From assembly GCA_028292745.1 (NCBI GenBank), contig JAQGLT010000069.1:1-60766 (forward strand): DNA of 60,766 nt, read 5' to 3'. Position 1 is the first letter of the stretch; each line of letters opens with the position of its first letter. This DNA comes from Polaromonas sp. Lineage in GTDB: Bacteria > Pseudomonadota > Gammaproteobacteria > Burkholderiales > Burkholderiaceae_C. Positions 329 through 54,179 of the stretch are shown one piece after another. The translations under genes were made by a program, and so were the position numbers. The notes under the pieces were generated by a model. The model was not told the origin of the DNA, did no database searches, and saw nothing but the letters and a program-made list of their open reading frames with translations.

Positions 329-335
329 TATTGGT

Positions 336-390
336 TAAATACCCCTGGGGCGCACTATACATATGCGTAAGCAGCTATGAAAATAAGAGC
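336..390 (+). repeat. 55-bp dispersed palindromic repeat, copy A
   Basis: This copy matches the repeat consensus in CAAAT-to-GTAGC orientation: AAATACC at the left end, GGCGCA, a spacer, TGCGTAAGCAGCTAT and a final AGAGC. It sits between yaaA and the hydrolase gene. Its last 14 bases contain the ATG and first codons of that hydrolase, so the repeat appears to supply the translation start. Confidence 0.7.
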
Positions 391-1303
391 AAATGGAATT
401 GACATCGAAGTCGAGGACAGCGGCGCCGGACCGGATGCGCAGGGCCGTCCCCGCCCGGTCGTGCTGCTGATCATGGGCCTGGGCATGCAGCTCACCGCCT
501 GGCCGCCTGCGATGGTGCAGGCGCTTGGCGATGCCGGCTTGCGGGTGGTGCGTTTCGACAACCGCGATGCGGGGCTGAGCCAGCGCTTTGATGCGCTCGG
601 CAAGCCCAGGGTACTGTGGGCCGGGCTCAAATACCGGCTCGGCTGGCGCATCAGGCCGCCTTACAGCCTGCAGGACATGGCGCTGGACGCGCTGGGCGTG
701 CTCGATGCGCTGCAAATTGACAAAGCGCATGTGGTCGGCGCCAGCATGGGCGGCATGATTGCCCAGCGCCTGGCCCTGCTGGCTCCCGGGCGGGTGCTGA
801 GCCTGACCAGCATCATGAGTTCAAGCGGCGCACGCGGCCTGCCCGAGGCCCGGCCTGATGTCGCCCGCATGCTGCTGACGCCTCCCGCGGACAAAAGCCT
901 TGACGCCGCCATCGACCGCTCGGTGCGGCTGTTCAAGGCCATCGGCAGCCCGGCCTATCCGATGCGCGATGATGAGTTGCGCGCAATCGTGGGCGCCGCA
1001 GCCCGGCGCAGCCTTTATCCGCATGGCATCTTGCGGCAATTGATTGCCGTGGCCGCCGACAGCGCGCGCGCCGACGCGCTGGCCGGCGTGACCGTGCCGA
1101 CGCTGGTGGTGCATGGCCGGGCCGACCCGCTGGTGCCGTTTGCCTGCGGCGAGGACACAGCCCGCCGCATTCCGGGCGCCCGGCTGGTCGGCATTGACGG
1201 CATGGGCCATGACCTGCCGCCCGGCGTTGTCGAGCGCCTGCTGCCCGTGCTGCTTGCGCACTTCGAGGCCACCAATCCCAACATGAAATTGGATGAAAAA
1301 TGA
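377..1303 (+). CDS. alpha/beta-fold hydrolase
   Basis: A 308-residue alpha/beta hydrolase, probably an esterase or lipase-like enzyme of unknown substrate. The nucleophile elbow GASMGG places the catalytic Ser near residue 123. The FDNRDAG stretch after strand 4 and the late [11 protein letters not shown] (acid) and GMGHDLP (His) motifs complete a plausible Ser-Asp-His triad. The layout resembles the RdmC/aclacinomycin-methylesterase-like subgroup, but family assignment does not fix the substrate. The N terminus MKIRANGID is normal for the family, so the ATG at 377 is likely right although no good Shine-Dalgarno precedes it; the upstream sequence is repeat copy A. It overlaps queF by 4 bp (ATGA), implying co-translation. 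Confidence 0.85.
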
Positions 1304-8400: not shown

Positions 8401-8753
8401 AATTGTTCCTTGATCGGGTGGCACTCTACAGCACCATGCCGAAAAGCGAGCCCTGCGCGGCGATGTCCCTACGCCGGGGCACGCATAAAGACTGCCGAGC
8501 TTTTTTCTTATCAAATAAGCCTTTTGCGCAGGTACAGCCTGCGTCTTCAGCTATTGATAACGTAGCATTCGCAATCCATTCGGCCCTGCCAGCGACTTGA
8601 CCTGCTTTTTGCAGATGGGTTGCCTCTCGCCGCCGCTGTATCGGAACCTGGGCGCCGGGCTGTTTCTCACGCCCGCAGTCGGACATGGCCGACACGCATC
8701 GGCGTCATGGCCGCCTAAATTGAAACTTTTTAGCCTGTTCGCCAGGGGATGCC
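8401..8753. other. divergent intergenic region between the LOV kinase and the ThDP enzyme
   Basis: About 350 bp with no supportable gene. It should hold promoters for both flanking genes. Repeat copy C occupies 8512-8566. No clean -35/-10 pair was found by eye. Confidence 0.5.
8512..8566 (+). repeat. 55-bp dispersed palindromic repeat, copy C
   Basis: A good full-length copy: CAAATAAGCCTTTTGCGCA, then a short loop, TGCG, and AGCTATTGATAACGTAGC. Both internal hairpins are visible: GCGCAGG...CCTGCG, and GCTA...TAGC at the right end. Confidence 0.75.
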
Positions 8754-16385: not shown

Positions 16386-17633
16386 TTAGAAAAGCTGCGG
16401 TGTTGCTATCAATTCAGTAGCTGGAGGCGCACGTCCTCTATGCGCTGAAGCCGGATTTGATTCATAAACAGGCACTTCGCCGACCTTGGCCAGCGCGCCG
16501 GCGCGCACGCCCAGCAAGCGCAGCCGTTTGTCCAGCGGCACGCGCTTCAGGCACAGCCCGGCAATTTTGCGAATTGCCTGGGCATCGGCGGTGTAGGTCG
16601 GTGCCGTCTGATCGCGTGTGGCGATCTTGAAATCGTCATAGCGCAGCTTGATGCCGATGGTCTTGGCCACGTAGCCCTTGCGCTGCAGGTCGGCCGCGAC
16701 CTGCGCGCACAGCCGGGTGAAGATCGCGCCCAGCTCGGCCTTGTCGCGCACCGCATGCAGGTCGCGCTCAAAAGTGGTTTCGCGGCTCATGCTGACCGGC
16801 TCGCTTTGCGTGACCACCGGGCTCTCGTCCCGGCCCCAGGCGACCGCATGCATCCAGGCGCCGGTGGCCTTGCCAAAGTGCTGCATCAGGAAGGCCGGCG
16901 CCCGCGTCGCCAGCTCGCCGATGGTCTGGATGCCCAGCCCGGCCAGCTTTTCGCCCGCCTTGGGACCGATGCCGTTGATCTTGCGCACATGGAGCGGCCA
17001 GATGCGGGACGGCAGGTCGGCCTCGTGAATGATCGAAATGCCGTTGGGCTTGTTGAATTCGCTCGCCATTTTGGCCAGCAGCTTGTTGGGCGCCACGCCA
17101 ATCGAGCAGGTCAGGCGGGTTTTTTCAAAAATCGCCTTCTGGATCAGCCGGGCCAGCACCTTGCCGCCTTCGCGCTGGCCGCCCGGCACGTCGGTGAAGT
17201 CGATGTACACCTCATCGATGCCACGGTCCTGAATGATCGGCGCAATCTCGGCAATCGTGCTCTTGAACAGCCGCGAAAACCTGCGTATCTCGTCAAAGTC
17301 GGCCGGCAGCACCAGCGCCTGGGGGCAGAGCCTGGCCGCCTTCATCATGCCCATGGCCGAACCGACGCCAAACTGCCGTGCTTCATAGGTCGCCGTGGTG
17401 ATGACGCCCCGGCCCACGTAGTCCTTGAGCAGCGGGAATGCCTCCACCGGGATAAGGCGCAGTTCGCGCTCGCCGTGCCGGGCCAGCAGGTCGTCATCGA
17501 CCTTGCGGCGTCCGCCGCCGATCACCACCGGCAGGCCCCTGAGCTGCGGATAGCGCAGCAGCTCGACCGAGGCGAAAAACGCGTCCATGTCGAGGTGGGC
17601 GATGCGGCGGATCGGTGGCGGCGAAGAAGTCAC
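16386..17633 (-). CDS. dinB: DNA polymerase IV (Y-family translesion polymerase)
   Basis: About 415 residues. The catalytic motifs of Y-family polymerases are present: HLDMDAFFASVELL (first Mg ligand), YEARQFGV, and DRGIDEVYIDFTD, equivalent to SIDEAYLD. The helix-hairpin-helix of the thumb (RKINGIGPKAGEKLAGLGI) and the little-finger region follow. Pol IV makes short error-prone synthesis past lesions. The GTG at 17633 is a probable start, 16 codons before DMDAFF; the frame is open to 17732 and no clear ribosome binding site decides. The last ~24 residues (from about 392) are encoded by repeat copy E and include SNPASAH...APPATELIA. The usual C-terminal clamp-binding motif would lie here; the final PQLF may serve (inference). 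Confidence 0.9.
   Translation of the reverse strand: MTSSPPPIRRIAHLDMDAFFASVELLRYPQLRGLPVVIGGGRRKVDDDLLARHGERELRLIPVEAFPLLKDYVGRGVITTATYEARQFGVGSAMGMMKAARLCPQALVLPADFDEIRRFSRLFKSTIAEIAPIIQDRGIDEVYIDFTDVPGGQREGGKVLARLIQKAIFEKTRLTCSIGVAPNKLLAKMASEFNKPNGISIIHEADLPSRIWPLHVRKINGIGPKAGEKLAGLGIQTIGELATRAPAFLMQHFGKATGAWMHAVAWGRDESPVVTQSEPVSMSRETTFERDLHAVRDKAELGAIFTRLCAQVAADLQRKGYVAKTIGIKLRYDDFKIATRDQTAPTYTADAQAIRKIAGLCLKRVPLDKRLRLLGVRAGALAKVGEVPVYESNPASAHRGRAPPATELIATPQLF
16404..16459 (-). repeat. dispersed palindromic repeat, copy E, inside the 3' end of dinB
   Basis: On the dinB sense strand it reads CAAATCCGGCTTCAGCGCA, spacer, GTGCGCCTCC, AGCTACTGAATTGATAGCA. It is 56 bp long and stays in frame. 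It encodes NPASAH...ELIA, matching the peptides made by copies K (hemD) and L (rne). Confidence 0.8.
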
Positions 17634-22353: not shown

Positions 22354-22409
22354 GCCGTGACATTCGCTTAGCGCGCAGTCGTGTTAACCAGTCAACAGAT
22401 TTCCAGCAT

Positions 22410-22464
22410 CAAATAGGCTTGTAGCGCACGCCTGGTCTGTGCAAGCAGCTATAAATTCAGTAGC
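22410..22464 (+). repeat. 55-bp dispersed palindromic repeat, copy F
   Basis: A full copy: CAAATAGGCTTGTAGCGCA, spacer, TGTGCAAGCAGCTATAAATTCAGTAGC. It lies 57 bp after the SPFH lipoprotein stop codon. Confidence 0.8.
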
Positions 22465-22599
22465 AAAAAGCTGTTCGGCGCCTTGAGCGCCGTGATGCAA
22501 GGTCAGGGTGATTTTTCTCTGGGCCATGCACGCCCCGGCCCGCACTGCACGGCTGGCGTCGCGGGCAGGCCGGCTGGGCGTGGCGATTTTCAGGAATTT

Positions 22600-22659
22600 C
22601 AAGCCTTTTGTGCCTGTAGCGCTTTACCCGCCTGCGTTGTTAGCTATCGAATAAATAGC
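22600..22659 (+). repeat. dispersed palindromic repeat, copy G
   Basis: The same orientation as copy F, about 60 bp: CAAGCCTTTTGTGCC, a longer spacer with CCCGCCTGCG, TTAGCTATCGAATAAATAGC. It differs mainly in the central loop. Confidence 0.7.
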
Positions 22660-22716
22660 AAATAAATCTCTGGCTGGAAAGAGGCCATGCCGGCGCCTTC
22701 CAGGCGCTTTCAATCT

Positions 22717-27748: not shown

Positions 27749-29269
27749 TCAGCCCAGATTGACCGGCAAGAAAATCTTGTTGTCGCCCCGCAGGATCAGC
27801 AGCGCCACCGATTTCTGCGATTTGGCCACGGTCTCCTTCACCTGTTCGATGTTCTTCACCGGCACGCCGTTGACCGACAGCAGCACGTCGCCCGCCTGCA
27901 CGCCGGCCAGGGCGGCCGGGCCGGTGGCCTGCTGCACCAGCAGGCCGCTGTCGGTGCCGGCTTCCTGCTGCTCGCCGGGCTGCAGCGGCCGCAGCGCCAG
28001 GCCCAGCTTGCCCTGGCCAGGCGCTTCCTTCCTGTCGGCGACCTGCGCGGCCTTCTCGTCGGCATTGGCCAGCTTGGCGCTGATCTCTTTCGACGCGCCC
28101 TGGCGCCAGATGCCGAGCTTGACGGTATCGCCCGGCGACGCCAGCCCGATCACCGCCGGCAGGTCGCCCGACGACACGATGGGCTGGCCGTTGACCTCCC
28201 GGATCACGTCGCCCGACTGCAGGCCCGCCTTGTCGGCCGGGCTGCCTTTTTCAACCGTCGAGACCAGTGCGCCCTCAGGTTTGTCGAGCTTGAAGGAATC
28301 GGCGAAGGCCTGGTTCACTTCCTGCACCGCCACGCCCAGACGCGCATGCTCGACCTTGCCGGTGGCCACGATCTGGTTCTTGATCTTGGTGGCGATATCG
28401 ATGGGAATGGCAAACGACACGCCTTGGTAGCCGCCGCTGCGCGAATAAATCTGCGAGTTGATGCCGACCACCTCACCGCGCGCATTGAACAGCGGCCCAC
28501 CAGAATTGCCGGGGTTAATGGCCACGTCGGTCTGGATAAAGGGCACTGCGCTGTCGTCAGGCAGCGAACGGCCCTTGGCGCTGACGACGCCGGCGGTCAC
28601 GGTGTTTTCAAAACCGAAGGGCGAGCCGATCGCCAGCACCCATTCGCCGACTTTCAGCTCGCTGGTCTTGCCCAGGGTTGCGACCGGCAGGTTGGAGGCG
28701 TCGATTTTCAGCACGGCAATGTCGGTCCTGGCATCGGCGCCCAGCACCTTGGCGCGAAACTCGCGCCGGTCGGTCAGCTTGACATTGACTTCCCTGGCCC
28801 CCTTGACCACATGGGCATTGGTCAAAATGATGCCGTCGGCGCTGACGATGAAACCCGAACCCTGGCCGCGCGTGGGCATTTCCTGCGGCACACCGGGTCG
28901 GCCCCGGCCGGGGCGCTGGCCCTGGCCGTCCTGGAACCGGCGGAAAAATTCGGACAGCGGCCCGTTGGCGAACGGATCTTCCTCAGCGCTGTCGCCGCCT
29001 TGCGCGAAAGGCGAACCGTTCGACACCTTGGTGCTGCCGGTCACGCTGATGTTGACCACGGACGGTCCGTAGCGTTCAGTGATCTGCGAAAAATCAGGCA
29101 GAGCCACGGGTGTCGTTGCCGGCGCGCTGCCGGCGACGATGGCCGGTGGCGAGAGGGCGGCGGCAGTCGAATGCATCGCGCTGAATGCGCCCACGCTGGC
29201 GCCGCCCACGGCGCCAGCGGCCAGCAGGGCGGCGACCAGCCGGGTAGTGTTCAAAGCTGCAAATTTCAT
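27749..29269 (-). CDS. degP: DegP/MucD-type periplasmic serine protease (Do family)
   Basis: A 506-residue HtrA protease that degrades misfolded envelope proteins. The N-terminal segment MKFAALNTTRLVAALLAAGAV is a signal peptide or anchor. The trypsin-like triad is His153 (TNAHVVKGA), Asp183 (DIAVLKID) and Ser256 (NPGNSGGPLF). Two PDZ domains follow, each with GLQSGDVI/GVQAGDVLLSVN-type motifs. ATG 29269 has AGGAACCC upstream; the frame is open further up, but that part is not a leader. A box matching the one at the two-component operon lies 65 bp upstream (29334-29350), suggesting control by that system. Whether it is the DegP, DegQ or MucD orthologue is not decided. Confidence 0.92.
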   Translation of the reverse strand: MKFAALNTTRLVAALLAAGAVGGASVGAFSAMHSTAAALSPPAIVAGSAPATTPVALPDFSQITERYGPSVVNISVTGSTKVSNGSPFAQGGDSAEEDPFANGPLSEFFRRFQDGQGQRPGRGRPGVPQEMPTRGQGSGFIVSADGIILTNAHVVKGAREVNVKLTDRREFRAKVLGADARTDIAVLKIDASNLPVATLGKTSELKVGEWVLAIGSPFGFENTVTAGVVSAKGRSLPDDSAVPFIQTDVAINPGNSGGPLFNARGEVVGINSQIYSRSGGYQGVSFAIPIDIATKIKNQIVATGKVEHARLGVAVQEVNQAFADSFKLDKPEGALVSTVEKGSPADKAGLQSGDVIREVNGQPIVSSGDLPAVIGLASPGDTVKLGIWRQGASKEISAKLANADEKAAQVADRKEAPGQGKLGLALRPLQPGEQQEAGTDSGLLVQQATGPAALAGVQAGDVLLSVNGVPVKNIEQVKETVAKSQKSVALLILRGDNKIFLPVNLG

Positions 29270-29333
29270 GAAAGGGTTCCTTGCATAGACAAGGCACACG
29301 CTGGTGCCGATGCAGCAAGTATGAAAACGCAGG

Positions 29334-29350
29334 CTTAGGCGAAACTTAAA
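29334..29350 (-). promoter_or_regulatory. candidate response-regulator box at the degP-like promoter
   Basis: CTTAGG, 5 nt, CTTAAA on the plus strand (TTTAAG-N5-CCTAAG on the gene's strand). It resembles the PmrA/QseB-type direct repeat and matches the box at 31731-31747 in 11 of 12 fixed positions. It ends about 65 bp before the protease start codon. Confidence 0.5.
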
Positions 29351-29575
29351 TTCCGGTGCCGCGCCACGCGCAAACCGCTGGCACTGCCGTTGGCCCGGCG
29401 GGCTCGGGCGGGCCTTGAGAAAAGGCCGCATTCCCTGTGCAATCGCCTTTGAATTGAGAGCAAAAAGCGAACTGCCCAGCGTCCCAGGCAGGCCTGTCGG
29501 CGTGTCCGAATGGCTTCTTTCCCAGCAGGGGAAGGAAAAAACCGAGGCCGGCGTGAACGGTGCCAGTTCAGGTGT

Positions 29576-29630
29576 CAAAAGTGTCCGCAACGCACGCAGC
29601 CCTTGCGCAAGCAGCTATTCATTCAGTAGC
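29576..29630 (+). repeat. 55-bp dispersed palindromic repeat, copy H
   Basis: CAAAAGTGTCC at the left, then CTTGCGCAAGCAGCTATTCATTCAGTAGC at the right. It lies just downstream of the sensor kinase gene. Confidence 0.75.
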
Positions 29631-29677
29631 AGACAGGCTGCCGCGTCGCAGCTGTGGCAGGTCACGGCGATCTCGCT

Positions 29678-33583: not shown

Positions 33584-34648
33584 ATGAAACCGACCACCGC
33601 TTCCCCCCCTTTTAACGACTCCACCCTGCATGGCGCCTTGCTGCCGACAGAAGGGGTGCCCGCGTCGCTTGCCCTGTACCGCGCCACGCTGTTCGATGTC
33701 TGCCATGTGGGCGTGGTGCTGCGCGTGGTGCTGTTTGTGCAGGCGGTGGCGGGCGTGGGCGCCATGTTCGGCGCCGCCGAACCGCTGGACTGGCTGCTGC
33801 GGTTTTCGCTGCTGACCGGCGGCGTGCTGCCGGCCACGCTGGTCTGGCTGATCACGGTGTGCGCCTTCAAGGCCCGGCTGAACCGGTTTCAGGCGTCCTG
33901 GCAGTGGGGCATCGGCACCGTGCTGGGCGTGGTGGCCGGGCTGTATGGCTGCGGCTTGCTGGCGTTGATGGGGCTGCTGCAGCCGGTGCAGTGGTGGGCC
34001 AGCGGCGCGGCGGGTGCGCTGCTCTCGGCCACGGTGCTGTCCGGGTTGTTCTGGCGGGCCAAGGCGCGCACGCCCGCTGCCACCGCCGCGCGGCTGGCCG
34101 AGCTGCAGTCGCGTATCCGGCCGCATTTCTTGTTCAACACCCTCAACAGCGCCATCGCACTGGTGCGGGCCGAGCCGTTCAAGGCCGAAGCGCTTCTGGA
34201 AGACCTGAGCGAGCTGTTCCGCAGTGCGCTGGCCGACCCGGCCGAGTCGGTCACGCTGGGGCAGGAAATCGCCCTGGCGCACCGCTATCTTGAGATCGAG
34301 CAGATCCGCTTCGGCGAGCGGCTGCGGGTGCAGTGGAGCCTGGACCCGGCGGCGGCCTCGGCCCGGCTGCCGCCGCTGCTGCTGCAGCCGCTGGTTGAAA
34401 ATGCAGTCCGGCACGGGGTGGAGCCGAGCGCCAGCGGCGCGCGAATCAAGATTTCCACGCTCAGGCGCGGCAGCACCGTGGTCGTCAAGGTCACCAACTC
34501 GGTGCCCGGTGGGGCGGGGCCGCCGGGCCATGGGCTAGCGCTGACCAATGTGCGTGAACGCCTGTACCTGCTGCACGATGTGCAGGCGCAGTTCAAGACG
34601 GCGTTCAAGGATGGGCTGTTTCAGGTCAGACTGGAGATACCTGCATGA
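33584..34648 (+). CDS. LytS/AlgZ-type sensor histidine kinase
   Basis: A 354-residue membrane kinase with four hydrophobic segments between residues ~40 and 160. The atypical HisKA_7TM/His_kinase domain contains SRIRPHFLFNTLNSAIALVR (phospho-His in the RPHFLFN motif) and the ATP-binding part PPLLLQPLVENAVRHGVEP and GHGLALTNVRERL. This is the LytS/AlgZ (FimS) family, lacking the standard H-box. ATG 33584 is preferred over the upstream 33533 start. It overlaps the LytTR regulator gene by 4 bp. Its position beside argH and near hemC matches AlgZ of pseudomonads, which governs alginate and type IV pili; the role here is unknown. Confidence 0.9.
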   Translation: MKPTTASPPFNDSTLHGALLPTEGVPASLALYRATLFDVCHVGVVLRVVLFVQAVAGVGAMFGAAEPLDWLLRFSLLTGGVLPATLVWLITVCAFKARLNRFQASWQWGIGTVLGVVAGLYGCGLLALMGLLQPVQWWASGAAGALLSATVLSGLFWRAKARTPAATAARLAELQSRIRPHFLFNTLNSAIALVRAEPFKAEALLEDLSELFRSALADPAESVTLGQEIALAHRYLEIEQIRFGERLRVQWSLDPAAASARLPPLLLQPLVENAVRHGVEPSASGARIKISTLRRGSTVVVKVTNSVPGGAGPPGHGLALTNVRERLYLLHDVQAQFKTAFKDGLFQVRLEIPA

Positions 34649-35391
34649 GTGCATTGAGAATACTGCTGGTGGACGACGAAAGCCTGGCCCGCGCCAGGCT
34701 GCGCACCTTGCTGGGCGACTGCACGGCGCCGGCGGCGCTGGTGACCGCCGAGGCGGCCAATGCGGTGCAGGCCATGAGCGCGCTGCAGCGCCAGCCCTTC
34801 GATGCGGTGCTGCTGGACATCCACATGCCCGGCACCGACGGTGTCGCGCTGGCCCGGTGCATCGCCGGGTTGCCCCAGCCGACCGCCGTGGTGTTTGTCA
34901 CGGCCCATGCCGAGCATGCGGTGCAGGCCTTTGAAGTGGCGGCGGTGGATTACCTGACCAAGCCGGTGCGGCTGGAGCGGTTGCAGCAGGCGCTACAAAA
35001 AGTAGAGCGTATTGTCCAGGCCCCATCTGCGCGGCAGCCTGAAAGGCCTGAAGACGTCCTGATCATCCAGGACCGGGGACGGACCGAGCGGGTACCGCTT
35101 TCAGAGGTGCTTTATTTCAAGGCCGAGCTGAAATACATCACCGTTCGCACGGCGCGGCGCAGCTACATCCTGGACGGCTCGCTGAACGAGCTGGAAACCC
35201 GGCACGCCGCGCAGTTCATGCGGGTCCACCGCAATGCGCTGATTGCCCGGCATGCCGTGCGGGCGCTGGAAAAGCATTTTGATCCGGAAGAGGGGGAGGG
35301 CTGGGCGGTGCGGCTCAACGGCATCGAGGAACTGGTGGCGGTTTCGCGCCGCCAGCTTGGCGCCGTGCGGGAGGCGATTGTCGTTGGCTGA
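34645..35391 (+). CDS. LytTR-family response regulator (AlgR-like)
   Basis: A 248-residue regulator: receiver domain (LLVDDESLARARL, phospho-acceptor in VLLDIHMPGTDG, Lys in DYLTKPVRL) and a C-terminal LytTR DNA-binding domain (EVLYFKAELKYITVRTARRSYILDGSLNELE...FMRVHRNALI). The linker between the domains (~residues 115-125) overlaps a short GCGCTAC...GTAGAGCG palindrome that may be a decayed repeat copy. It forms an operon with the kinase upstream. In Pseudomonas the next gene is hemC; here a permease gene and the opposing ppc gene lie between. Confidence 0.93.
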   Translation: MSALRILLVDDESLARARLRTLLGDCTAPAALVTAEAANAVQAMSALQRQPFDAVLLDIHMPGTDGVALARCIAGLPQPTAVVFVTAHAEHAVQAFEVAAVDYLTKPVRLERLQQALQKVERIVQAPSARQPERPEDVLIIQDRGRTERVPLSEVLYFKAELKYITVRTARRSYILDGSLNELETRHAAQFMRVHRNALIARHAVRALEKHFDPEEGEGWAVRLNGIEELVAVSRRQLGAVREAIVVG

Positions 35392-36811: not shown

Positions 36812-36868
36812 GCAATTTATGCCGTTTGCGCAAGCTGGTGTTGCGCAGGTAGCTATAAAAATAGTAGC
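36812..36868 (+). repeat. dispersed palindromic repeat, copy J
   Basis: CAATTTATGCCGTTTGCGCAAGC, loop, TTGCGCAGGTAGCTATAAAAATAGTAGC. It lies between the convergent AI-2E transporter and ppc genes. Confidence 0.75.
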
Positions 36869-36890
36869 AGACCGGTGTAATTGATCATTT

Positions 36891-36938
36891 GTCAGCCCGT
36901 CAGCCCGTCAGCCCGTCAGCCCGTCAGCCCGTCAGCCG
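36891..36938. repeat. six tandem copies of an 8-bp unit at the 3' end of ppc
   Basis: GTCAGCCC occurs five times in succession, then GTCAGCCG. The last unit contains the ppc stop codon (TCA on the plus strand, TGA in sense). Because the unit is 8 bp, copy-number change would leave ppc intact but alter the 3' untranslated region. It is too short and regular to be a CRISPR array. Confidence 0.85.
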
Positions 36939-40939: not shown

Positions 40940-41803
40940 GTGACGACCGTGCGCGTTCTCGTGACCCGGCCCGCGCGCGACGCCGAGCCCTGGGTGCGGC
41001 AGTTGCGTCAGGCCGGCCTGGCCGCCGAGGCTTTTCCCTTGATCGACATCGCACCGGCCGCCGGTGCTGACCAGCGCCAGGCGCTCGACGAAGCCTGGCA
41101 GGCGCTGGACGGCTATGCGGCATGCTTGTTCGTCAGCGGGCATGCAGTGGACTCTTTTTTTCAACCAAATCCGGCTTTTGCGCATGCCCCGCCTGCGCAG
41201 GATGCTATTAATAAAATAGCGTTTCGCGGCGCAGCGGGGATACCGCCGCATTTGCGTTTCATGGCCCCGGGGCCGGGCACCGTGGCTGCGCTGCTGGCGG
41301 CGGGCGTTCCTGCCGCGCAGATTGATGCACCGGCGCCTGATGCCAGCCAGTTCGACTCCGAAGCGCTGTGGGACGTGATCGGCGGGCGGGACTGGCAGGG
41401 CGCCCGGGTGCTCATTGTGCGCGGGCTCAGCGAAGGTGCGCCGGGCAGTTCCTCGGGCCGCGACTGGATCGCTTCGCGGTGGCGCGCTGCCGGCGCAAGT
41501 GTCGATTTTGTCGCTGCCTACCAGCGCCGCGCGCCTTGCCTCAGCCAAGCCCAGGTGGAGCGCGCCCAGGCGGCCAGCGCCGACGGCTCGGTATGGCTCT
41601 TCAGCAGTTCGGAAGCCGTGGGCAACCTGATCCGGCAGGCAGGGCTGCAAGGGGTCGACTGGGGCCGTGCCCGTGCCGTGGCGACGCACCACCGTATCGT
41701 TGACGCGGCGCGAGCGGCGGGCTGGGGTGTTGTTGTGGCGTCACGCCCCGCGCTCAAGGATATTTTGGCTGTCCTCGCCTCGATAGAATCGCACCATCCA
41801 TGA
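40940..41803 (+). CDS. hemD: uroporphyrinogen-III synthase
   Basis: A 287-residue enzyme that closes and inverts hydroxymethylbilane into uroporphyrinogen III. The typical weakly conserved HemD pattern is present: VLVTRPARDAEPWVRQLRQAG at the start, FVSGHAVDSFF, GPGTVAALLAAGV, and WLFSSSEAVGNL and ATHHRIVDAARAAGW in the second domain. GTG 40940 starts the conserved region (the frame is open from 40598, overlapping hemC in another frame). Residues about 76-94 are encoded by repeat copy K, an in-frame insert after the FVSGHAVDSFF helix. The stop overlaps the hemX start (ATGA). Confidence 0.93.
   Translation: MTTVRVLVTRPARDAEPWVRQLRQAGLAAEAFPLIDIAPAAGADQRQALDEAWQALDGYAACLFVSGHAVDSFFQPNPAFAHAPPAQDAINKIAFRGAAGIPPHLRFMAPGPGTVAALLAAGVPAAQIDAPAPDASQFDSEALWDVIGGRDWQGARVLIVRGLSEGAPGSSSGRDWIASRWRAAGASVDFVAAYQRRAPCLSQAQVERAQAASADGSVWLFSSSEAVGNLIRQAGLQGVDWGRARAVATHHRIVDAARAAGWGVVVASRPALKDILAVLASIESHHP
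41166..41220 (+). repeat. dispersed palindromic repeat, copy K, inside hemD
   Basis: A full 55-bp copy: CAAATCCGGCTTTTGCGCA, spacer, CTGCGCAGGATGCTATTAATAAAATAGC. It is translated as NPAFAHAPPAQDAINKIA, in the same frame as copies E and L. Confidence 0.85.
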
Positions 41804-44881: not shown

Positions 44882-47800
44882 TCAGCCGGCCGACTTTTCG
44901 AACGGCAGCGGCATGCTGCCCAGGTCACGCTTGGTTTCCACCAGCACCAAGGGCGCCTCGTCCACCACGACGGCAGGCGGGCGCTCGCGCGGCACCTGGA
45001 TCGGCTTGACTTCGGCGGCGATGGCCGCCTTTGCTTCAGCGATCTTGGCCGCATCCGAGTTGATCCACTGCAGGCCCGAACTCTCTGCCACCTGCGCCAG
45101 GTCCTGCAAAGGCAGGTCGTACGCCTGCACCTTGGGCAGGGCGCCAGCGGTCGCGACAGGTGTTGCTGCCGCTGGCGCCACGGGCACCGGTGCCTGCACA
45201 GCGGCAGGCGCGGGTGCTTGTGCCGTCACTGGCGCTGGGCTGGCTGGCGCAGCCGATGCCACTGCTACGAATTCAGCAGCTACTGGCGCTTGCTGATCCT
45301 GCGGTTGAGCCGGATTTGTCTCAAAAACATCGGTTCTGGCCACGGCCTCGGTGCCCTCGACGGCCTGTTCGTTGCGTTCTCCGCGTTCACCCCGTTCACG
45401 CCGGTCGCGGCCATAACGGTCACGGCTGCGGCGTTCGCGTGGCTGGCGCTCCTGGCTGTCTTCCTGGCCGTCCGGGCGGGCCGCAACCTCATCGGCCGCA
45501 AGCACCGGGGCAGCCGGGCTGCCGACTTCGGCAGGAACCGGCACTGCGGCTGGACGGGCGGCATCGAAAATGTCAGCCTGGGCCGCAGCAACCGGTGCGG
45601 CGGCTGCGTCAGTCCGCTCGCCGCGGCGCTCGTTGCGGCGACCGTTGCGCTCTACGCCCCGTTCACCGCGCTCAGCCCGTTCACCACGCTCACGCGCAGC
45701 CTCGCCAGAGGCCTCTTCGCCACGCCCTTCGGCGCGGACCTCCTGCCGTCCTTCTCCGCGTCCGCCCTGTGGGCGGCGGTCGTTCTCACGCAACGGCTCC
45801 TGTGCCGGTCGTTCCTGGCGCGGCGCTGGCGCATCGCTCCCCGCCGCAGCGGCCATGGCGGCCTGGTTGGCAAGCGCCAGATCCTGTTCGGCGGCATCGC
45901 GCGGTGCGCGCTCACCGCGTTCCGAGCGCTCGGCACGCTCTGGGCGCTCCCCGCGTGGGCGGTTCCGGTCACCACGGCCCTCGCGGTTTGGTCCTTCGTT
46001 GCCACGCGGCTGGGCGTCGCCGGCATTCTCGCCGCGGCTGTCAGGCCGATTTTCAGCGCGGTGGTCACCGGCTGCCGGACGTTCCTGGCGTTCTGGACGT
46101 TCCTGACGCTCGGGGCGGCCTCCTTCGGCACGTCCTTCGGCATGACGGTCGCGGCGTTCGCCGTTACGACCCTCAGGACGGGCTTCGGACGAGGCGGTTT
46201 CGGCGCGGCCGTCACGCCCACGGCCGCGACGGCTGTCGCGCCCGCCACGCTCGGGCCGTTCGCCGCGTCCCTCGGCAGGACGGCTTTCACGCGGTGCCTC
46301 GTCCTTTTTCACTTCACGCAAGACCGGCGCAGCCGGTGTTGGCGCTGGCGCCGGGGTGTCGGCCATGCCGAACAGGTTTTTGATCCAGCTGAACAGGCCT
46401 GTTTCTGCCGGGGCAGGTGCCGGAACATGAACGGGCGCCGGAGGTGGCGCCTTGGGCGCTGCGGCAGCGACTGCCACCGGTTTTGGCGGCGCCATCGGGG
46501 CCGGGGCATCGGGCAGCACGCCCTTGATGATGGGTTCCTGCTTGTTGTGCTTTTCCTGGCTGCGGCGCGTCACCGTGGTCGGGTCTTCATGCTCCTCGGC
46601 CATCTTGTAGCTGGCTTCGATGTTGTCCAGGCGGGGATCGTCGTGCTTCAAGCGCTCTAACTTGTAGTTGGGGGTTTCCAGCGTCTTGTTGGGCACCAGC
46701 AGCACGTTGATGCGCTGCTTCATCTCGATCTTGCTGATTTCCGAGCGCTTTTCATTCAGCAGGAACGACGCCACATCGACCGGCACTTGGCATAGCACCG
46801 AGGCGGTGCTGTCTTTGAGCGACTCTTCCTGGATGATGCGCAGAATCTGCAGCGCCGAGCTTTCGGTGTCGCGGATGTGGCCGGAGCCGCCGCAGCGCGG
46901 GCAGGGAATCGACGCGCCTTCGGAGAGGGCCGGGCGCAGCCGCTGGCGGCTCATTTCCATCAGGCCGAACTTGCTGATGGTGCCGAACTGCACCCGGGCG
47001 CGGTCTTGCCGCAGCGCGTCGCGCAGGCGGTTTTCCACATCGCGGCGGTTGCGCGACTCTTCCATGTCGATGAAGTCGATGACGATCAGGCCGCCCAGGT
47101 CACGCAGGCGCATCTGGCGCGCCACCTCGTCAGCAGCCTCCAGATTGGTGCGGGTGGCGGTTTCCTCGATGTCGCCGCCCTTGATGGCGCGCGCCGAGTT
47201 GACGTCGATCGACACCAGTGCCTCGGTGTGGTCGATGACGATGGCGCCGCCCGAAGGCAACTGCACCGTGCGGGCGTAGGCCGACTCGATCTGGTGCTCG
47301 ATCTGGAAGCGCGAGAACAGCGGCGCGTCGTCGCGGTAGCGCTTGACGCGGTGCTCATGCTCGGGCATCACATGCGCCATGAACTGGCGCGCCTGCTCGT
47401 ACACGTCGTCGGTGTCGAACAGAATATCGCCGATGTCGCTGTTGAAGTAATCACGGATGGCGCGGATCACCAGGCTCGATTCCTGGTAGATCAGGAAGGC
47501 GCCCTTGCCGCCCTTGCCGGCGCCATCGATGGCTGTCCAGAGCTTGAGCAGGTAGTTCAAATCCCATTGCAGTTCAGGCGCGCTGCGGCCGATGCCCGCG
47601 GTGCGGGCAATGATGCTGGCGCCGGCCGGGTATTCCAGCTTGTCCATCGCCTCCTTCAACTCGGCGCGGTCCTCGCCCTCGATGCGGCGCGACACGCCAC
47701 CGCCACGCGGGTTGTTGGGCATCAGCACCACATAACGGCCGGCCAGCGAGACAAAGGTGGTCAGCGCCGCGCCCTTGTTGCCGCGTTCCTCTTTTTCCAC

Positions 47801-48290: not shown

Positions 48291-48345
48291 TGCTACAGAA
48301 AAAGTAGCTGTTTGCGCCCGCTGTTGAAGGGCGGCAGGCTGATTT
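48291..48345 (-). repeat. dispersed palindromic repeat, copy M
   Basis: Plus strand: TGCTACAGAAAAAGTAGCTGTTTGCGC, spacer, GGGCGGCAGGCTGATTTATG, i.e. the reverse of the consensus. It lies in the rne leader/promoter region. Confidence 0.7.
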
Positions 48346-53618: not shown

Positions 53619-54179
53619 ATGTCCAAATCTCTTCAAGCCAGCCGGCTCAACATGCAGGCCTTTGCTCAGGAAGGCCTGCCGCTCATTGAAACCACTTTGC
53701 TACAAAATCTGGAGCGCCTTGCGCAGGAGGCGCAAGCGCTAACACCCGATTCGGCTGTTAGTTGGCAGGCACGGGCCGAGTTGAGGCCGGGCTCGGGCGC
53801 TGAAGATGATGTGTGGTTGCATCTGCTTGCCAAGACATCCGTCCCGCTGACCTGCCAACGTTGCATGGGCACTGTCGCCACGGTGCTGGAAGTCGATCAG
53901 TGGTATCGCTTTGTGGCAACCGAAGACATCGCGATGGCCGAAGATGATGAGTCCGAAGAGGACTTGCTTGTCATGGAACCCCACTTTGACCTTGTCGCTG
54001 TATTGGAGGACGAGTTGCTGATGGCGCTGCCGCTGGTGCCCATGCATGAAGAATGCCCGGTGGCCCCGGTTTTCCAGGCTGGCGATGAAGCGCTGGCGGG
54101 TCCAGACAGCGGAAAAACTGCAAAGGACGAGAAGCCCAACCCCTTTGCTGTCCTGGCACAGTTAAAAAAGAAAAACTGA
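53619..54179 (+). CDS. yceD: YceD/DUF177 family protein, 23S rRNA accumulation protein
   Basis: A 186-residue protein with the DUF177 Zn-ribbon pattern LTCQRCMGTV (Cys79, Cys82) and the acidic C-terminal motif DELLMALPLVPMHEECP. In bacteria YceD precedes rpmF and helps 23S rRNA accumulation; a plant homologue is needed for chloroplast 23S rRNA. Residues ~27-45 overlap a palindrome that may be a decayed repeat copy (53698-53752). It is the first gene of the ribosome/fatty-acid block; the promoter must lie in or near maf. Confidence 0.9.
   Translation: MSKSLQASRLNMQAFAQEGLPLIETTLLQNLERLAQEAQALTPDSAVSWQARAELRPGSGAEDDVWLHLLAKTSVPLTCQRCMGTVATVLEVDQWYRFVATEDIAMAEDDESEEDLLVMEPHFDLVAVLEDELLMALPLVPMHEECPVAPVFQAGDEALAGPDSGKTAKDEKPNPFAVLAQLKKKN
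53698..53752 (-). repeat. possible decayed palindromic repeat inside yceD (copy N)
   Basis: TGCTACAAAAT, then GCGCCTTGCGCAGGAGGCGCAAGCGC, then CCCGATT fits the repeat layout in reverse. The match is weaker than for copies E, K and L, and the coded peptide is a normal helix, so this may be chance. Confidence 0.4.

Follow-up and report, generated by a model that had tools for sequence, protein, structure and literature searches.

A double-hairpin repeat of approximately 60 to 66 bp is dispersed through the genome of this Polaromonas strain, and where a copy lies within a gene it usually appears, from sequence comparison, to cover codons that copy-free homologues also have. Because this holds for the majority of gene copies compared, we tentatively propose that the repeat may well have been written block-wise over existing codons by a conversion-like copying process, and not inserted. 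The element was analyzed in the window (the whole stretch of DNA under study, 60,766 nucleotides), in a larger sample of the same genome, and in related genomes. The source genome measures 3.78 Mb and is 88.4% complete, and the sample of 858,290 bp consisted of the window and 40 further stretches, searched with a profile begun from 87 seeds. The window holds 12 copies, 5 of them in genes, and 2 of these 5 run opposite to their host gene, a pair that the first-pass annotation of the window had overlooked. The copies are the following:

16404..16461, minus strand: copy in dinB, in the C-terminal linker of DinB, preceding the final residues TPQLF
34992..35042, minus strand: weak copy (16 bits) running against its host, the response regulator gene 34645-35391 (LytTR domain)
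41164..41220, plus strand: copy in hemD, in the gene's orientation and in the preferred frame, encoding residues 69-86 of HemD (279 aa)
45263..45318, minus strand: copy in rne, in the C-terminal tail of RNase E
53698..53754, minus strand: copy in the YceD family gene 53619-54179, opposite to this host gene
334..391, plus strand: copy within which gene 377-1303 is predicted to start
8510..8567, plus strand: intergenic copy
22408..22465, plus strand: intergenic copy
22608..22660, plus strand: intergenic copy
29574..29631, plus strand: intergenic copy that touches the predicted start of gene 27749-29578 (minus strand)
36813..36869, plus strand: intergenic copy
48291..48345, minus strand: intergenic copy

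The first-pass annotation had assigned one kind of 18-residue peptide to the dinB, hemD, and rne copies, and translation of the sequence gave exactly the peptides claimed: NPASAHRGRAPPATELIA in dinB (16404-16457, minus strand), NPAFAHAPPAQDAINKIA in hemD (41168-41221, plus strand), and the 18-residue peptide in rne (45263-45316, minus strand). The 3 copies have one orientation and one codon phase relative to their genes, and the peptide common to the 3 proteins does derive from the DNA repeat, the peptides being translations of one repeat. Pfam backing is limited to HemD (HEM4 domain) and RNase E (RNase E/G domain), and the name dinB is taken from the first-pass annotation; the QLF at the C-terminal end of this protein, after the linker copy, is presumably a clamp-binding motif. 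Predicted start codons lie inside several copies (334-391 in the window, and others in L045, L063, and L069) and give starts like M-K-x-I-A, some of which the gene finder may have misplaced. Right after the intergenic copy at 36813-36869, there is a tandem array of six units (the last imperfect) of the 8-base sequence GTCAGCCC (36891-36938).

In the 858,290 bp, 165 profile matches were detected at E ≤ 0.01; the reversed sequence gave none, even at E ≤ 1. Removing overlaps left 163 copies, or about 190 per Mb of contig sampled, a density that is maybe slightly high because the sampled stretches are long contigs that already had motif matches. Raw matches of at least 12 bits numbered 180 in the genome sample versus 0 in a 400-kb control (best score 10.0) drawn from seven motif-free genomes of the same family (GC 0.69 versus 0.61 in the genome sample). 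This family of copies is not a product of chance. Across the taxonomic family, 57 of 150 genomes had at least 1 match to a 17-base motif.

The consensus of the element is approximately ATTTTT..ATCAAATA.GCCTCTAGCGCA.GC.G.GC.TGCGCAA.CAGCTATTAATT.AATAGCAA, and the information drops to zero beyond it, giving the element sharp ends. The unit measures 59 to 66 bp and comprises one GC-rich and one AT-rich palindrome. The hemD copy (52% GC, counted on 54 bases) folds into 2 hairpins (z −2.1), and five other window copies gave fold z values of −0.4 to −3.3, some of them with a different fold. The information content of 57 bits, a value inflated because the copies were collected by similarity, compares with 13.4 bits needed for the observed copy number. 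Scores obtained with a full-length matrix (trained on those same copies) were bimodal: 162 sites reached at least 20 bits and only 16 fell between 5 and 20. Rfam at gathering thresholds gave no match in the window, and pairing covariation among copies within one genome was not detected beyond the consensus. In hemD orthologues, the top covariation signals resemble clade structure, and the stem has decayed in many species.

An in-house gene finder called 728 genes in the 858-kb sample, and 55 of the 163 copies fell in predicted genes, in both orientations. The density was 0.074 copies per kb in genes versus 0.905 per kb elsewhere; intergenic regions held 2.93 copies per kb when convergent, 0.83 when tandem, and 0.29 when divergent. 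This preference for convergent and tandem intergenic regions is a placement shared with REPs and REPINs. The excess of one frame that the first-pass annotation had anticipated was found genome-wide: by phase, the copies in genes divide 25/3/1 when in the orientation of the gene and 20/6/0 when opposite to it, which places 45 of the 55 in the preferred frame of their strand. Stop-free readings of the 108 copies outside genes divide 50/51/7 and 69/7/29 in the same phase order, and the split in genes differs from this one with p values of 6e-4 and 1.3e-3, which are rough because a single copy can be open in several phases. Avoidance of stop codons is part of the frame excess, and since the 2 splits differ, it does not explain the frame bias alone. 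All of the 40 host ORFs tested, which were picks from the list of copy-bearing ORFs and not the whole list, contain a Pfam domain, and the host families include CoaD, MurG, AroE, DapF, MetH, RpoN, Tex, RecQ, and PutA (the gene names are our reading of the Pfam matches). At one site (L038, 3303-3355) a copy lies over an apparent lipoprotein signal peptide (SFRALALVVRAPLAIVTIAILAGC), by eye with no length change relative to G181, a closely related genome.

The proposal that the copies are in-frame inserts adding 18 residues fails for most of those compared with G181, which is nearly free of the element (10 motif matches, and 7 profile matches of at least 12 bits in the 1.2 Mb sampled). Among the 55 gene copies, 20 had a best G181 match of at least 55% identity (one-way), and 15 of these, in 14 genes, aligned on both sides. 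The net length change relative to G181 was 0 at 10 of the 15 copies, and −5, −4, +4, +8 (Tex), and +25 (MetH) at the others, a change of +18 or more thus occurring at 1 copy of 15. The DinB orthologue in G181 is 4 residues shorter. At the 10 gap-free copies, protein identity was 0.52 within the element versus 0.81 in the flanks (Wilcoxon p 0.002). As about half of the residues beneath the element are kept, replacement by an unrelated block is not seen, and the targets would therefore need prior similarity.

Solved structures also oppose the insert reading. Ten hosts were aligned each to its best PDB match; the alignments of HemD and GluQ-RS did not span the element, and in the eight other hosts the net change within the element was at most 2 residues at 9 of ten sites. 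This change was 0 at CoaD, PutA-B, and the asparaginase, +1 at PutA-A and the HAD phosphatase, −1 at NIF3 and AroE, +2 at RmlD, −2 at MurG, and +7 at PutA-C. The PDB homologue of AroE has a 10-residue gap two residues ahead of the element, so that 8 of the 10 sites are within 2 residues when near flanks are counted, and the ungapped CoaD site is perhaps a chance match because its similarity to the element is weak (E 9e-5). Among the 11 usable intergenic regions with a copy, six were 68 to 270 bp longer than in the relative, four were 128 to 1166 bp shorter, and one differed by −9 (p 0.52); the regions next to hemD had too few copies for testing.

PutA (L060, 11321-14401) carries 3 separate copies, 2 in the orientation of the gene and 1 against it. 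The comparison covered 26 loci (L182-L207; the four loci L208-L211, of a longer type that is about 53% identical, were excluded). For site A, 25 loci could be matched, gapless except for one partial match and one that was two residues shorter, and site B was matched in all 26 with zero internal gaps and a repeat score that went from 41 bits to undetected, while the length of site C varied across loci. Site B also aligns gapless to PDB 4q72, where a Trp-Ser common to both proteins occupies the place expected for the 3′ hairpin arm.

The copy within hemD was found in 58 of 80 related loci at E ≤ 10; at a threshold of 12 bits the number was 50 of 80, and the offset was the same in almost all loci. 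The nearest hemD relatives of the window gene are Polaromonas records, and the copy is present also in Acidovorax, Diaphorobacter, Rhodoferax, and Comamonas records. A recent insertion into hemD was considered and dropped because the copy is shared through the genus and seen in other genera. In orthologues that carry a strong copy, the HemD loop spans 21 to 34 residues (median 27, n = 38), compared with 14 to 47 (median 23, n = 24) in those that do not. The idea that orthologues have the 18-residue segment only where the repeat is present was borne out in part. HemD of Polaromonas JS666 lacks 19 residues at the element site compared with its nearest relatives, making a genuine indel in hemD possible, but a few orthologues without a detectable repeat keep a similar peptide (e.g., L083). 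In a predicted structure of HemD (31 sequences, mean pLDDT 86), element residues 69-86 lie in the least certain stretch (residues 71-90 are near pLDDT 51), which would fit a tolerant loop.

Copies within one genome are not independent and probably spread by copying: 82 of 12,720 pairs share 75% identity or more, versus a mean of 2.4 and a maximum of 11 in 200 shuffles. The eight most similar pairs all lie outside genes. A subfamily of 13 members (3 in genes) that ends in TCAGGAGC instead of AATAGC includes the most similar pairs, which hints at a more recent spread. At the level of individual sites, 18 of 30 genus loci have the dinB copy at the matching position (E ≤ 0.01), and the rne copy gave 12 matches in other loci, many of which contain rne only in part. 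Two Acidovorax genomes have hundreds of motif matches, and the consensus stem there is GCGCTT...AAGCGC (35 copies) versus GCGCA...TGCGC in Polaromonas (156 copies). In hemD, a T-A pair in the stem is present in 10 of 17 copies from Acidovorax and other non-Polaromonas records versus 1 of 30 Polaromonas-group copies. However, the Polaromonas hemD copies are mostly unpaired at that stem position (A-T in 5 of 30), and the Acidovorax-like hemD copies are intermediate between the 2 consensus forms over all columns, both of which argue against a simple story.

Within the genus, the number of motif matches per genome ranges from 0 (12 of 61 genomes, some of them incomplete) to 511, near-palindromic sites possibly being counted twice, once on each strand. 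The strength of the PutA sites followed the number of matches per Mb (Spearman 0.63 for A, n = 24; 0.47 for B, n = 26; 0.61 for C, n = 26; kinship ignored), and slightly less so without the home genome (0.60, 0.41, and 0.56). Because copy number varies from 0 to 511 in one genus and PutA site strength follows it, a factor acting in trans is suggested, and with 0 to about 500 motif matches per genome the responsible factor should be findable by gene presence. No writing factor was found among the candidates considered. The single Y1-transposase gene (PF01797) has no good copy within 1.5 kb (best element match E 6.4), hence lacks the linkage seen with RAYTs, and its family occurs in 60 of the 61 genus genomes, motif-free ones included, and does not track copy number. 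ComEC, present in 53 of the 61 genomes including motif-free ones, does not track it either. In G163, G164, and G187, the ComEC domain match is split at a similar spot by an unaligned stretch of approximately 207 to 280 bp with an open frame.

Our tentative explanation is that a template copy would replace partly similar host sequence and that the host protein would then retain only the tolerated frames. Reading the repeat in its tolerated frame would simply yield the recurring N-x-x-x-A...A-Q-A-A-I-x-x-I-A peptide, and the copying process would also hold the copies near the consensus of each lineage. Length neutrality, the bimodal full-length scores, the pairs of similar copies, and the lineage-specific stem pair speak for overwriting, and the indels speak against it (MetH +25, Tex +8, PutA-C +7, and the 19 residues of hemD relative to JS666). 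The MetH copy, and perhaps the hemD and intergenic copies, may be true insertions. A recent gain of a copy was not caught in the genomes compared.

The main rival, unlikely in our estimate, is an analogy with DNA uptake sequences, by which the element would be a recognition motif that accrues in place via biased uptake and recombination and forms lineage dialects. It would agree with copies in genes that are mostly length-neutral and in both orientations, with the depletion in genes (0.074 versus 0.905 per kb) and the richness in convergent regions (2.93 per kb), and with copy numbers that differ widely in one genus and a lineage-specific stem; known uptake sequences are reported, in the available parts of the sources, as arising in pre-existing sequence (PMC1939737), often via recombination (PMC2397512). 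However, the element is palindromic, its length and information content (57 bits, inflated, versus 13.4) exceed what its frequency would require, half-made sites are few, the copies form subfamilies, and ComEC occurs in motif-free genomes too (53 of 61 in all).

We consider it improbable that the repeat is a classical mobile palindromic element of the Rickettsia kind, inserted in frame and with old inserts trimmed later. The unrelated hosts, the single frame per strand, and the copying between copies could be explained in this way, as could the JS666 HemD that is 19 residues shorter, MetH +25, and the 6 of 11 intergenic regions that are longer, but the net change of 0 at 10 of 15 copies and of at most 2 residues relative to distant homologues at 9 of 10 sites are at odds with it, and the lengths of the HemD loop overlap between orthologues with a strong copy (median 27) and those without (14 to 47, median 23). 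Very improbable, finally, is that selection maintains each copy as a site bound by a chromosomal protein: although the copies are dispersed, in both orientations, and rarely half-decayed, 57 bits far exceeds recognition needs, within-genome pairing covariation beyond the consensus was not seen, and whole genomes of the genus are without the element.

If repeats overwrite conserved coding sequence in a length-neutral manner, annotation that seeks inserts misses them, and if overwriting is true, a DNA-level process would dictate residues of core enzymes, among them HemD, MurG, and AroE. A broader idea, which we regard as rather doubtful, is that Comamonadaceae carry a new kind of genome-wide DNA drive, in which a 60-bp double hairpin would overwrite partly similar sequence anywhere, conserved enzymes included, with a dialect per lineage, and would vanish wholesale once its factor is lost. 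With the genomes of Polaromonas and Acidovorax, the process can be tested directly.

Repeats inside proteins are a known kind, and the length-neutral mode, the scale, and this family were not found described in the literature searched, which covered sources other than the JS666 genome paper. For such an element in Comamonadaceae, the same search turned up only BRE, a repeat of Bordetella and other Betaproteobacteria with some copies within genes; in the portions of its description available, BRE in Bordetella is 75 to 91 bp, 69% GC, and often tandem, and it is commonest in JS666, with 29 copies (PMC3110155). By that description, as opposed to an alignment, our element is set apart by its 59- to 66-bp unit, its AT-rich hairpin, and the only 10 motif matches in JS666. 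The element may be identical to the MITEs of Polaromonas JS666 that a review cites in its available part (Mattes 2008, in PMC10969869), though JS666 has only these 10 matches. REPs of the GTAG and CGTC families, for example in Opitutus terrae, are described in the accessible text as short high-copy palindromes, mainly in convergent and tandem intergenic regions, with some in ORFs (PMC3733652); placement is alike, but REPs are 20 to 40 bp and carry a GTAG or CGTC tag, the GTAG ones being tied to a transposase, whereas here there is no link to the sole Y1-transposase gene. ERIC, YPAL, NEMIS, and other bacterial MITEs are, in the sections available, small non-autonomous repeats that can form in-frame fusions (PMC2759123, PMC2229807); they measure approximately 100 to 200 bp, compared with 59 to 66 bp here, and many have terminal inverted repeats and target duplications. 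The uptake sequences of Neisseriaceae and Pasteurellaceae, as far as the excerpts go, arise in existing sequence without insertion, in and between genes (PMC1939737, PMC2397512), but these have non-palindromic cores of 9 to 12 bp and a tested role in uptake. The palindromic elements of Rickettsia (and Wolbachia) are, in the available text, palindromic repeats that lie in frame within numerous unrelated protein-coding genes (PMC2229807, PMC10969869), mostly about 105 to 150 bp long and described as peptide-adding insertions, with RPE-4 and RPE-6 being REP-sized (PMC3733652). The parallel with Rickettsia drawn in the first-pass annotation therefore stands for a palindromic repeat in frame in unrelated genes and does not extend to the addition of a module by insertion (net change 0 at 10 of 15 copies), the element described here being 59 to 66 bp and mostly length-neutral.
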